This document shows, in pieces, positions 1 to 6,503 of a stretch of 32,456 nucleotides of DNA. The DNA comes from Rhodomicrobium lacus (GTDB lineage: Bacteria; Pseudomonadota; Alphaproteobacteria; Rhizobiales; Rhodomicrobiaceae). The stretch spans positions 1 to 32,456 of the forward strand of contig NZ_RZNF01000024.1 in assembly GCF_003992725.1 (NCBI RefSeq), given 5' to 3'. The notes under the pieces are model-generated. The model was not told the origin of the DNA. It made no database searches and was given only the letters and a program-made list of their open reading frames with translations. Position 1 is the first letter of the stretch. Each line of letters begins with the position of its first letter. The position numbers were made by a program, and so were the translations under genes.

Positions 1-2492
1 GCACCGGTATCACCCGTGGCACCCGTCGCTCCGGTTGCTCCGGTGTCGCCCGTGGCACCCGTCGCTCCGGTTGCTCCGGTGTCGCCCGTCGCACCCGTGG
101 CTCCGGTCGCACCCGTTTCACCTATGCCTGTGGCACCTGTTGCGCCGGTAGCTCCGGTGTCACCCGTCGCGCCGGTAGCACCCGTGGCACCTGTAGCGCC
201 CGTAGCACCGTTCTGGCCGTTCTGACCGTTCTGGCCATTCTGACCGTTCTGGCCGTTCTGACCGTTCTGGCCATTTTGGCCTGTAGCACCCGTAGCACCC
301 GTGGCACCGGTTGCGCCGGTAGCGCCTGTAGCACCGGTTTCACCCGCGCCCGTGGCACCTGTCGCGCCCGTTGCACCGGTAGCACCCGTAGCACCGGCCG
401 GACCCGTCGGACCACCTTCAGGACCCGTTGCACCGGTATCACCCGTTGCGCCGGTATCGCCCGTGGCACCCGTGGCTCCAGTTGCACCGGTAGCGCCGGT
501 AGCGCCGGTAGCGCCGGTTGCGCCGGTTGCGCCGGTAGCACCCGTGGCACCGACTTCGCCGGTAGCACCTGTGGCACCTGTGGCACCCGTAGCGCCCGTT
601 GCGCCGGTATCGCCCGTGGCTCCAGTTGCACCGGTTGCGCCTGTAGCACCGGTAGCGCCAGTTGCACCGGTAGCGCCTGTAGCGCCTGTAGCGCCGGTAG
701 CGCCGGTTGCGCCGGTAGCACCCGTGGCACCGACTTCGCCGGTAGCACCTGTGGCACCTGTGGCACCCGTAGCGCCCGTTGCACCGGTTGCGCCTGTAGC
801 ACCCGTTGCGCCAGTTGCACCCGTAGCGCCTGTAGCACCGGTATCACCCGTAGCTCCAGTTGCACCGGTTGCGCCTGTAGCACCGGTAGCGCCAGTTGCA
901 CCTGTGGCACCGGTAGCACCCGTGGCACCGACCTCGCCTGTAGCACCTGTGGCACCCGTAGCGCCCGTTGCACCGGTTGCGCCGGTAGCGCCCGTAGCAC
1001 CGGTTGCGCCCGTAGCACCTGTGGCACCTGTGGCACCGGTAGCTCCAGTTGCACCCGTGGCACCCGTAGCGCCTGTTGCACCGGTATCACCCGTAGCTCC
1101 AGTTGCACCGGTAGCGCCTGTAGCACCCGTGGCACCGGTTGCGCCGGTAGCACCTGTGGCACCCGTAGCGCCTGTTGCACCGGTGTCACCCGTGGCTCCA
1201 GTTGCGCCGGTAGCGCCCGTGGCACCAGTTGCACCGGTAGCTCCAGTTGCACCCGTGGCACCCGTAGCGCCTGTTGCACCGGTATCACCCGTAGCTCCAG
1301 TTGCACCGGTAGCGCCTGTAGCACCTGTAGCACCTGTAGCACCTGTGGCACCCGTAGCGCCCGTTGCACCGGTTGCGCCGGTAGCGCCCGTTGCACCGGT
1401 TGCGCCGGTAGCGCCCGTTGCACCGGTGGCACCCGTGGCTCCAGTTGCGCCGGTAGCGCCGGTAGCGCCGGTAGCGCCGGTAGCACCCGTGGCTCCAGTT
1501 GCGCCGGTGTCACCCGTGGCACCCGTGGCTCCAGTTGCACCGGTAGCACCTGTGGCACCCGTAGCGCCTGTTGCACCGGTGTCACCCGTGGCTCCAGTTG
1601 CACCCGTAGCACCGGTAGCGCCCGTGGCACCGGTTGCGCCGGTATCACCCGTGGCACCCGTGGCTCCAGTTGCGCCGGTAGCACCTGTGGCACCCGTAGC
1701 GCCTGTTGCACCGGTGTCACCCGTGGCTCCAGTTGCGCCGGTAGCGCCAGTTGCACCCGTGGCACCCGTTACACCGGTAGCGCCGGTGGCACCCGTGGCT
1801 CCAGTTGCACCGGTAGCGCCGGTGGCACCTGTAGCACCCGTGGCGCCGGTAGCACCGGTATCACCCGTTGCGCCTGTTGCACCCGTGGCGCCTGTAGCGC
1901 CTGTGTCACCCGTGGCTCCAGTTGCACCGGTAGCGCCGGTGGCACCTGTAGCACCCGTGGCGCCCGTTGGACCGGTGTCGCCTGTGGGACCCGTGTTTCC
2001 AGTTGCACCCGTTGGACCGGTGTCGCCCGTGGGACCCGTTGCTCCAGTTGCACCCGTGGCACCCGTTGCACCGGTGTCGCCCGTGGGACCCGTGGCTCCA
2101 GTTGCGCCTGTAGCACCCGTGGCACCTGTGGCACCGGTGTCGCCCGTGGCACCGGTAGCACCGGTAGCACCGGTGTCGCCCGTTGCGCCCGTTGGGCCGG
2201 TTACGCCGACGTCCAGAAGCGTAACGTCAAACTGCCCGCTTATTGCGGGATTTCCCTGTGTCTGGGCCGTCCCGAGCTGATTGAACACGAAGACGTTGGC
2301 TGCGGTGCCTCCCTCTGGGAGAGCGACGATGACCTTATATTGGGACGTCAGGAGAGTACCCGTCGCCAAATCAACGGCGGCGTTTGTAACTGTTGTACTA
2401 CCTAACAATATAAAATCTTCACCGTCGAAGTAGTAAACGTACTCTGTAGTGCCGAGTATATCTCGACCAGCGACTTCTATTAAATCTGCCAT
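1..2492 (-). CDS. Collagen-like Gly-X-Thr repeat protein, C-terminus outside window
   Basis: Reading the minus strand from the ATG at 2492-2490 gives an unbroken frame of 830 codons that leaves the window at base 1, so the C-terminus is not seen. Residues 1-95 form a non-repetitive domain (begins [18 protein letters not shown], ends DVTLLDVG) with no obvious signal peptide. From residue 96 the protein is almost purely Gly-X-Thr, mostly GAT with GDT, GPT, GET and a single GNT. A block of seven GQN triplets lies at about 210-275. The periodicity breaks near 120 and 350 (one residue lost) and near 410 (one extra Gly). The frame at base 14 still matches that of the ATG, so there is no net frameshift. 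A purine-rich AAGGTGAAGG precedes the ATG. Collagen-like surface proteins such as Bacillus BclA have Thr-rich triplets that are O-glycosylated. The glycosyltransferases at 3126-6503 make a surface glycoprotein likely, by inference. A phage-type fibre is an alternative. Confidence 0.88.
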
Positions 2493-2543
2493 CACCTTCA
2501 CCTTTTGTTGAATTGTGCGCAACCAATAAGTGCTTTGGCGCGA

Positions 2544-4424: not shown

Positions 4425-4880
4425 ATCCCTTGAGCAATTGGCGACAGCCGACGCCGCTCGAAGTGGGCGTTTTGCAACAGACGCAATTTGATCTTGAAGG
4501 CCTTGTGGCCGTGCTGACGAAGCAACTCTGAGCGGTACTGACTACGCCGCTTCTACCATAGATAGGATGTAGAAAAGGTAAACCACCTAAAATTGCAAAT
4601 TATTGGTGCGGCAGGGTTGGCGCAAGTATCAATAAAACCCAGTATCTAACCAGGTTGAGTGTCCCGCCAATACTGAGCCTAAACCTAAGATCACGATAGG
4701 TTGAGTAAAGTCTGGGCGCCGTTGCGAACCGCAAGGGTCGACTCTGCGTCTCTACTCTTGCATTATAAGCCTGTTCCGGAGGATGCGGCTTGGAGCTGCA
4801 AGCTTGGGAGGTGGTTGGACTGATATTCAGGCAATAGCCCGACGCGCTGATCGGGAGGCAAGAAATCAGGTTCCAAAGCC
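4425..4880. other. Divergent AT-rich intergenic region with a small dyad
   Basis: About 450 bp separate the two divergent transferase genes. The stretch 4540-4720 is clearly AT-richer than its surroundings. It contains AACCTA (4682-4687) and its inverse TAGGTT (4697-4702) around 9 bp, and AGGTTGAGT occurs twice, near 4650 and 4698. This is probable promoter and operator DNA for both genes. I see no RNA gene or coding frame. Confidence 0.4.
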
Positions 4881-6503
4881 ATGACCATCAACGTGACCAC
4901 CAGCTCCATCCTGCCAACCGGCGTGAATCTCGGCTCCGGCAAGGACTATCGGGCCGACTATTTCAATATCGACATCGACAACAGCTGGTCGCCCGATGCG
5001 GTGGTAGACCTCGCGAGCTTCGATCTGGATGCTGTCGGGGTAACGGTGCAGACGCACAGGTTCGGCGACGTGCGGCTGCGGCCGGGCACTTTCGACACCA
5101 TCATCGCCAATGATGTGCTCGAACATGTGCCGAACCTCGTCAGGCTGATGACCAATTGCCTGAAGCTGCTCAAGGTCGGCGGGGTGTTCGAGATCAATGT
5201 GCCCTACGATCTCTCATTCGGCGCATGGCAGGATCCGACCCACGTGCGGGCCTTCAATGAGCGCAGCTGGCTCTATTATACGGACTGGTTCTGGTATCTC
5301 GGGTGGAGCGAGGCGCGGTTCGTTGTCGAGCGGATGACCTTTGTTCCGAGCGCAGCCGCCGCGCCGCTGGCAAGCACCGTACCCATGGCCGAGCTTCAGC
5401 GCATGCCCCGCATGATCGATGCGATGTCGGTGTCGCTTCGAAAGGTCGAACTGACGGCAGCGGATCGGAATGTCTGGGAGAATTGGCGTGAGCGCAAGCG
5501 GTTGGCACAAAGCCGCTGGTCGGCGCCCGTGCCAACCCCGCCAGCAGCCACATCGGCGGCGGCGCCCGCCTCACCGGTCGCGGCAGCGACACCGTCGCCC
5601 GTGACGCCTGCGCAAGCGGAGATTATCCCGCAAGCGTTCGCCGGCGGATGGGCGGCGCATCGCGACCGCCATTGCCTATGGATCGTCACGCCGGAGGGCT
5701 ACAAACATCACCAGACCTTCGACGAATTCGCGCTCGGTCTCAGCGAGGCGTTCGCGGAACTGGGCGGGTCGTGTCCCATCGTTCGCGATCCCCTCTTGTT
5801 TAACGGACGCATCCCAATCGTCCTTGGCACACATCTGCTCCGGCACGCCTCTAGCGTGACCATTCCAGCCGACAGCATCCTCGTCAATTTCGAACAGGTC
5901 GTGACTGGCGGCGGCTGGATCAATGAGGGCTATCTGTCACTGCTGCGACGCTTCCCGGTCCTCGACTATTCGATACGGAACCGGAAGGCCCTGATCGAGC
6001 AGGGGATTACAAATGCCGGACTGCTGGGGATCGGCTACTCGCCCGGACTCGCCCGGATTCCGAATGCCCCGGAAAAGGATATCGACGTGCTATTCTACGG
6101 GTCGCTGAATCCCCGGCGAAAGAGCATTCTTGAAGCCTTGCGCGCCAGAGGGCTGAACACCGTGCATTTGTTCGGCGCCTATGGGGCCGAGCGCGATGCG
6201 GTCATTGCGCGGGCAAAGCTGGTGCTGAACCTTCACTTCTATGAAAGCGCCATTTTCGAGGTGGTGCGGGTCTCTTACCTTCTCGCCAACGGCATATGCG
6301 TCGTCAGCGAGGGAGAGAAGGGCGATCCGGATATCGCTCCGTTCGAAGGCGGGCTCGTGGTGTGCGGCTATGAGGAGATCGTCGATAGCTGCACCGCGCT
6401 CATCGCCGATGACGCATCCCGCATAGCTCTCGGCGTGCGAGGCCGGGACATCATGATGGCGCGTCGCCAATCCGATTTGCTCAAGGCTGTCTTCGGAGAC
6501 TGA
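4881..6503 (+). CDS. Bifunctional protein: SAM methyltransferase fused to CgeB-like glycosyltransferase domain
   Basis: 540 residues. Residues about 12-200 are a class I SAM-dependent methyltransferase: VNLGSGKDY (15-23) is the glycine-rich SAM loop, DIDN follows strand 2, IIANDVLEHV (74-83) is the post-II motif, and LLKVGGVFEINVP is motif III. A Pro/Ala-rich linker spans about 215-248. The rest (about 260-540) resembles CgeB/YkvP-type GT-B glycosyltransferase-like domains, with DVLFYGSLNPRRKSILEAL, a VHLFGAYG strand, NLHFYESAIFEVVRVSYLLA and a final DPDIAPFEGGLVVC. No membrane segment is seen. GGAGG lies 22 bp before the ATG and a weaker CAGG 10 bp before. It is divergent from the GT2 gene and may act on the same glycan, for example adding and methylating a sugar. 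That role is inferred. Confidence 0.8.
   Translation: MTINVTTSSILPTGVNLGSGKDYRADYFNIDIDNSWSPDAVVDLASFDLDAVGVTVQTHRFGDVRLRPGTFDTIIANDVLEHVPNLVRLMTNCLKLLKVGGVFEINVPYDLSFGAWQDPTHVRAFNERSWLYYTDWFWYLGWSEARFVVERMTFVPSAAAAPLASTVPMAELQRMPRMIDAMSVSLRKVELTAADRNVWENWRERKRLAQSRWSAPVPTPPAATSAAAPASPVAAATPSPVTPAQAEIIPQAFAGGWAAHRDRHCLWIVTPEGYKHHQTFDEFALGLSEAFAELGGSCPIVRDPLLFNGRIPIVLGTHLLRHASSVTIPADSILVNFEQVVTGGGWINEGYLSLLRRFPVLDYSIRNRKALIEQGITNAGLLGIGYSPGLARIPNAPEKDIDVLFYGSLNPRRKSILEALRARGLNTVHLFGAYGAERDAVIARAKLVLNLHFYESAIFEVVRVSYLLANGICVVSEGEKGDPDIAPFEGGLVVCGYEEIVDSCTALIADDASRIALGVRGRDIMMARRQSDLLKAVFGD

Follow-up and report, generated by a model that had tools for sequence, protein, structure and literature searches.

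The question raised by this locus is whether a Thr-rich collagen-like protein of Rhodomicrobium lacus is glycosylated by the enzymes encoded beside it, and what the complete system would consist of. The DNA analyzed (NZ_RZNF01000024.1, 32,456 nucleotides, hereafter the window) is the entire contig C22 of a 24-contig genome, G000; in the labels used below, G denotes a genome searched, C a contig, and L a fetched locus. A preliminary description of this DNA had suggested that the collagen-like gene, a family 2 glycosyltransferase (GT2), and a methyltransferase-glycosyltransferase fusion could be the whole of a methylated-glycan collagen system. The observations reported here, on gene content, gene order, conservation, homology, and genomic association, indicate that the locus is probably best explained as a glycosylated collagen export cassette, of which the window holds only a part.

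The collagen-like gene lies on the minus strand at the start of the window (5' part, 1 to 2492) and is open at the contig end, which falls inside its repeat; this is an assembly break, and another contig of this genome, C6, ends with the 3' part. An N-terminal head domain of ~95 to 96 amino acids (2205 to 2492, minus strand) is followed by the repeat tract (1 to 2207, minus strand), in which residues 96 to 829 contain 243 Gly-X-Y triplets when only runs of at least three with no Gly at X or Y are counted. The collagen-like open reading frame (ORF) matched Pfam Collagen with an E value of 6e-106. As had been described, X is mostly Ala (196 of 243 triplets) and Pro is scarce (9 per 736 residues). 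The description of the tract as Gly-X-Thr holds for 230 triplets, whereas 13 differ, comprising 8 Gly-Gln-Asn and 5 with Val, Glu, or Ala at Y. The eight Gly-Gln-Asn triplets form a block at 207 to 281 (minus strand), and a similar block is present in G004. Contig C6 carries 28 further triplets and then a tail of ~140 residues.

Judged by reading, the head has no hydrophobic signal peptide. Its model contained six beta strands at low confidence, with one of five models above a mean predicted local distance difference test (pLDDT) score of 50, and Foldseek returned no match at an E value of ≤0.001 for this weak model. A part for the head in trimerization is conceivable. The head alone, used as a query in a scan of genome contigs, gave no match. 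Within the order, its profile matched 6 of 397 genomes, including four from Rhodomicrobium, and in a class-wide sample of 385 genomes only that of the window was matched. The collagen also scored 327 bits against NCBIfam NF038329 (LPXTG-anchored SclB; cutoff, 325 bits); this identity was rejected, as the score stems from the repeats and the C terminus of the copy in this genome has no LPXTG.

The GT2 gene is situated 633 bp upstream of the collagen gene on the same strand (3126 to 4352, minus strand, within an ORF at 3126 to 4424). Translation probably begins at the ATG at 4352, the point at which both orthologues begin. The product matched PF00535 (E value of 1e-11) and has a C-terminal half resembling tetratricopeptide repeats (TPRs) together with a DAD motif. 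The family profile matched TPR proteins across positions 200 to 296, and Pfam TPR exceeded its cutoff in one family member; a Pfam scan of the window enzyme itself found no TPR, and neither of the procollagen galactosyltransferase (GT25-type) domains was detected in it. Its solved relatives by sequence were GmaR (E value of 3e-11) and SunS-type enzymes, which we take to be a flagellin glycosyltransferase and a glycocin S-glycosyltransferase, respectively, both modifying proteins. Although these are the closest solved sequences, no flagellin or bacteriocin gene was present among the identified neighbors of the window GT2, which is likely a Thr glycosyltransferase.

The GT2 family was found to track Gly-X-Thr collagens beyond the genus. 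A locus was scored as positive if it contained, anywhere in the fetched stretch, at least 8 Gly-X-Y triplets with Thr at ≥25% of Y and Gly at ≤20% of X and Y. The cleanest test is a set of seven previously unexamined family loci (20 kb fetched), of which five were positive. By the same criterion, none of 20 random 20-kb regions, none of 20 regions around other GT2s, and none of 79 loci of fusion relatives were positive (Fisher P = 2.6e-4 for the family against other GT2s). With a looser test accepting any Gly-X-Y run of eight, the counts were 5/7 for the family, 1/20 for other GT2s (P = 0.0014), 0/20 for random regions, and 1/79 for fusion loci. On plasmids, eight of nine fetched GT2 loci had the tract, the nine being drawn from 15 GT2-bearing records that include several near-duplicates and the one exception being a Citrobacter plasmid. 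Among 15 chromosomal loci outside the genus (11 from a search of the order and 4 from a search of the phylum), 10 were positive (G312, G011, G074, G139:C34, G375, G308, G140, G229, G1039, and G1094) and 5 were not (G139:C39, G328, G218, G893, and G832).

The distance from GT2 to tract ranged from 347 bp to ~7 kb, and the association spanned alpha-, beta-, and gammaproteobacteria. The carriers of the tract were diverse: in Mesorhizobium ciceri, a DUF4347 protein encoded next to a type I exporter, and elsewhere proteins with lipoprotein-like starts (by reading) in Cupriavidus, an unannotated long collagen in Methylobacterium, and an autotransporter on an E. coli plasmid. Family members were clearly separated by score, at least 289 bits compared to at most 63 for other GT2s in 14 genomes, and they were rare. 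A profile of the two-domain enzyme described below matched 13 of 397 genomes of the order at an E value of 1e-60, some by the GT2 half only, and the GT2 profile matched 9 of 398 genomes of the phylum at 1e-50. In a class-wide sample of 376 genomes, the two-domain enzyme was found in this genome only; a phage search with it gave three records, none covering 80%. The E. coli genome collection held no near match to the plasmid GT2, and one E. coli plasmid in PLSDB has the GT2. Two further observations were made at these loci. Instead of a Gly-X-Thr tract, long Gly-rich ORFs adjoin a family GT2 in G328 and G218 (L135:6965-9976 and L136:11275-20000); these are perhaps other substrates. In G1094, a collagen poor in Thr (Gly-Pro-Gln/Ile; L206:11588-11956, minus strand) lies close to a different GT2 gene, and the two are possibly another collagen-enzyme pair.

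Several points weigh against reading this association as glycosylation of the collagen. Three of the five positives in the seven-locus test came from one genus (g65), and the family profile was seeded mostly with loci whose proximity to collagen was already established. The control set of other GT2s consisted of 20 of 25 matches below 65 bits; two of the omitted ones, located in clusters that also contain a collagen and a family GT2, would score as positive, and the Thr-poor collagen at L206 mentioned above is close to a GT2 of the control set. Six of the 24 fetched family loci outside the genus failed the criterion (L133, L135, L136, L157, L158, and L142), or five if L142, with its shrunken tract, is excluded. 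No biochemistry was found for these proteins. The failing loci would suit a collagen that is exported and works unglycosylated, with the GT2 and the fusion making a surface polysaccharide or lipopolysaccharide side chain and being neighbors by chance or as fellow surface genes. Such an arrangement would also agree with the occurrence of fusion relatives in several phyla without a nearby Gly-X-Thr tract, and with a review table in which most bacterial collagens are listed without glycosylation (PMC8968730). We nevertheless consider it unlikely, as it does not account for an association that spans several classes and modes of export and is all but absent from the controls, for the fusion of a collagen-galactosyltransferase-like module to the same kind of GT2, or for the joint absence of the transferases from the two members of the genus without an intact head. 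The presumed protein acceptors of GmaR and SunS, the closest solved relatives, likewise speak for glycosylation of the collagen itself.

The length of the tract was found to vary. An autotransporter beside the same glycosyltransferase has 41 Gly-X-Thr triplets on the E. coli plasmid (L143:5585-8899) and only a stub on the Citrobacter plasmid (L142:5927-8899), a pair that constitutes a natural tract-length polymorphism. Variation of this kind, and the retention of nothing but a broken head fragment in G002, could be taken to mean that the tract is an expanding DNA repeat of little function that hitchhikes on an exported head. This is most improbable, however. Four Thr, three Gly, and four Ala codons are in use in the window tract, and since Gly and Thr are held while synonymous codons are mixed, it is the protein pattern that is maintained and not merely a DNA repeat. 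The tract is also kept in distant families with different heads.

Within the genus, the three window genes were found together, as the preliminary description had anticipated, and each has the identity assigned to it (Pfam Collagen, PF00535, and Methyltransf_23, with a model of the fusion matching glycosyltransferases). Of five Rhodomicrobium genomes searched, the window's own included, four had the collagen head, which was intact in three. Orthologues of the fusion (83% identity) and of the GT2 (85%) were present in the same three genomes, with the arrangement conserved. Neither orthologue was found in G001 (88% complete) or G002; in G001, the fusion found only a short match at 34%, confined to its methyltransferase part. 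The head in G002, a genome without GT2 and fusion, is a broken fragment with stops (L008:215-496, minus strand). The locus contig of G003 is identical to NZ_JFZJ01000127.1 of Rhodomicrobium udaipurense.

The relatives showed in addition that the trio is not the whole set. In G004, a one-contig genome in which the collagen gene is complete (834 amino acids), it is followed on the same strand by genes for a HlyB-like ATP-binding cassette (ABC) transporter, a HlyD adaptor, a Sel1-repeat protein, and a two-domain glycosyltransferase. The same four downstream genes occur on C6 of G000 and on contig C134 of G003 (cassette split over contigs). G312 and G011, from two other families of the order, have collagen, ABC, HlyD, Sel1, and two-domain enzyme in identical order; each has, genome-wide, a single family GT2, which is the two-domain enzyme, and no separate GT2 of the window type. 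The window trio was therefore rejected as a complete system, and the core kept outside the genus is, unlike the window set, collagen, type I exporter, and two-domain glycosyltransferase. The noncollagen tails end in Lys/Arg-His in G000, G004, G312, and G011 and otherwise in M. ciceri. The G312 tail resembles the Rhodomicrobium tail (BLAST E value of 3e-11); that of G011 gave no BLAST match to it at 1e-3 and has only the loose pattern in common.

The exporter resembles HlyB/HlyD. The best match of the ABC protein was HlyB, yet its score was under the HlyB subfamily cutoff; the HlyD adaptor exceeded its family cutoff, as did a TolC family protein (TIGR01844) on contig C4 of G000. The ABC protein has no Cys in its first 333 residues. 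An active C39 peptidase requires Cys, and the N-terminal region of the ABC protein is therefore no active C39 cysteine peptidase. Type I systems export unfolded chains without a cleaved signal peptide. The difference from HlyB/HlyD lies in the substrate, a collagen in which no RTX family was found. On this evidence, it is very likely that the collagen leaves the cell by type I export. Inside the cassette, on the opposite strand, lies an ORF with a HELGH (HExxH) motif and no Pfam family (L006:1023-1889, plus strand). Its relatives, all with the motif, were found in three Rhodomicrobium genomes, in G312, G375, G308, G140, and G229, and on three Mesorhizobium plasmids, and they were present in seven of eight loci where ABC or HlyD relatives were seen; none was found in the fetched G011 stretch or in 15 other GT2 loci. 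This protein may be a protease.

The two-domain enzyme consists of a GT2 half, to which the window GT2 is 45% identical, and a C-terminal Anp1-type domain. The latter matched procollagen galactosyltransferase 1 (E value of 9e-34), LH3 (2e-15), and R699 (7e-5), the last being presumably a mimivirus collagen glucosyltransferase. In M. ciceri, a GT2, a procollagen-galactosyltransferase-like N-domain, and a GT25 are joined in one chain (L137:8992-11790), residues 404 to 804 of which align collinearly, across both domains, with residues 11 to 428 of procollagen galactosyltransferase 1 (E value of 1e-41). Procollagen galactosyltransferase 1 and LH3 glycosylate hydroxylysine of animal collagen. The C-terminal domain of the two-domain enzyme is homologous to them and is encoded within a collagen gene cluster, but the bacterial version is fused to a GT2-TPR enzyme, and it would need Thr or Ser as acceptor (the part of the tract in the window has no Lys, and the part on C6 has six). 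Two points temper this comparison: no GT25 match was obtained for the two-domain enzyme of Rhodomicrobium, which matches procollagen galactosyltransferase over the first domain only, and a top PDB match is no proof of such an acceptor because the PDB holds few relatives. The argument for a collagen acceptor rests on the gene neighborhood.

The closest experimentally proven analogue found was SgtA-BclA3 of Clostridioides difficile. SgtA is described as a GT-A domain with four TPRs, encoded directly upstream of bclA3, that in vitro modifies Thr in peptides from the collagen region with beta-O-GlcNAc (PMC7157674). As in that system, a glycosyltransferase gene adjoins a Thr-rich collagen gene, and Thr of Gly-X-Thr would be the expected acceptor. 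Less favorably for the parallel, the likeness of a GT-A followed by TPRs is one of described architecture, and SgtA is reported not to be Thr-only, Ser also being used (PMC7157674). The present loci differ in having Gram-negative hosts; type I, lipoprotein-like, or autotransporter carriers rather than a spore protein; Ala rather than Pro at X; and an extra collagen-galactosyltransferase-like domain, methyltransferases, and an HExxH protein. BclA of Bacillus spores, to which the preliminary description had pointed, is likewise a Thr-rich glycosylated collagen. The glycan of BclA contains methylated sugars, and Riftia cuticle collagen has glycosylated Thr at Y. Taken together, glycosylation of collagen Thr by the GT2 enzymes is quite likely, and the system would be a variant of the SgtA-BclA3 kind.

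The fusion gene (4881 to 6503, plus strand) is divergent from the other two and encodes a methyltransferase (~residues 1 to 205) and a glycosyltransferase (~256 to 540). The first half matched Methyltransf_23; the second gave no Pfam match at an E value of 0.001. A model of the whole protein (mean pLDDT of 71.6, six sequences) matched sugar-nucleotide glycosyltransferases such as tll1591, MshA, and SenB, presumably GT-B folds, with a best E value of 1e-7, and a sequence-based search of solved structures gave no match. Relatives of the fusion were widespread, in records named from several phyla; 80 loci were kept of 92, 79 of them outside the genus, with flanks of up to 10 kb that were often cut by contig ends. 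The domain order varied among the 80 loci (L030 to L109), with the methyltransferase first in 9 and the glycosyltransferase first in 65.

The enzymes had been described as linked to the collagen, and for the fusion family this did not extend beyond the genus as it did for the GT2. None of the 79 relatives had a Gly-X-Thr tract in the fetched flanks, and the 38 and 40 kb fetched from G312 and G011, respectively, contained no match to the fusion. The first of these results ruled out the fusion as the defining element of the system; the family is general and not collagen-specific, and in Rhodomicrobium it looks like a recruited part. Both results would fit a collagen modified by the GT2 enzymes alone, the fusion being a genus-specific neighbor that serves another surface glycan, a reading that is a real contender although we would not quite favor it. 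It has to be set against the position of the fusion, which lies next to the collagen gene, at the 83% identity noted above, in each of the three Rhodomicrobium genomes whose head is intact, and against two parallels elsewhere. Of seven plasmid records with a fusion relative, two were from Mesorhizobium and five from Azospirillum. On the two Mesorhizobium plasmids, the halves of the fusion are separate genes within the collagen cluster; the Azospirillum plasmids matched the glycosyltransferase half only, with no collagen in the two of five examined. In Methylobacterium, a single polypeptide encoded beside a 225-triplet tract combines a GT2 with a further glycosyltransferase domain and with an FkbM methyltransferase. 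Because methyltransferase and glycosyltransferase modules recur in the Mesorhizobium and Methylobacterium collagen clusters, methylated glycans on such collagens are plausible. The fusion may extend and methylate the collagen glycan, and that a methylated glycan is made with it is close to an even call, leaning slightly to the negative.

The glycosylated collagen export cassette would then work as follows, the substrate, the sugar, the order of steps, and the surface location being what we infer. In the cytosol, the GT2-TPR enzyme and the two-domain enzyme would put sugars on the Y-position Thr of the long Gly-X-Thr chain, and the fusion might extend or cap the glycan with a methylated sugar. 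The unfolded chain, which on reading has no signal peptide and carries a tail of ~120 to 140 residues, would leave by its own type I exporter, made up of the ABC protein without Cys in its N-terminal region, the HlyD adaptor, and a TolC encoded elsewhere. Outside, the collagen would trimerize, and the sugars on Y-position Thr would replace the missing Pro/hydroxyproline in the helix.

Two features elsewhere in the window were also observed. A MauG/MbnH-like di-haem enzyme is encoded beside a TonB receptor (6663 to 10846, minus strand), and a single ORF (13124 to 13888, plus strand) combines a cytochrome c domain with a Cache sensor domain.

That a collagen gene can be accompanied by a dedicated Thr glycosyltransferase is already known from C. 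difficile, and to this extent the system is not, as had been suggested, previously undescribed. The type I cassette variant was not found in print: keyword searches of the open-access literature gave nothing on the type I cassette, the galactosyltransferase-like fusion, the spread over three classes, or the Pro-poor, nearly all-Thr tract, although a prior report is possible. Likewise, no match was obtained by keyword for a collagen-like protein with type I secretion and a glycosyltransferase in alphaproteobacteria, and nothing relevant for Rhodomicrobium and collagen.

The locus would offer a collagen that is simple to study by experiment, poor in Pro, occupied by Thr at almost all Y positions, and provided with glycosyltransferases and an exporter of its own. 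It would thereby allow a direct test of whether hydroxyproline can be replaced by glycosylated Thr at Y in stabilizing the triple helix. The locus also points to a substrate of type I secretion that lacks RTX repeats and to relatives of procollagen galactosyltransferase that bacteria encode alongside collagens, which suggests a counterpart in bacteria of the attachment of sugars to animal collagen. More tentatively, and with slightly less than even confidence, Gram-negative bacteria may possess a modular collagen-glycosylation machinery, in which a GT2-TPR initiator that recognizes Gly-X-Thr serves type I, autotransporter, or lipoprotein collagens; methyltransferases would supplement this initiator, and several lineages would have joined it to a counterpart homologous to the collagen galactosyltransferase of animals. 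If so, collagen-specific sugar transfer would be a biochemistry shared by, or convergent between, bacteria and animals.

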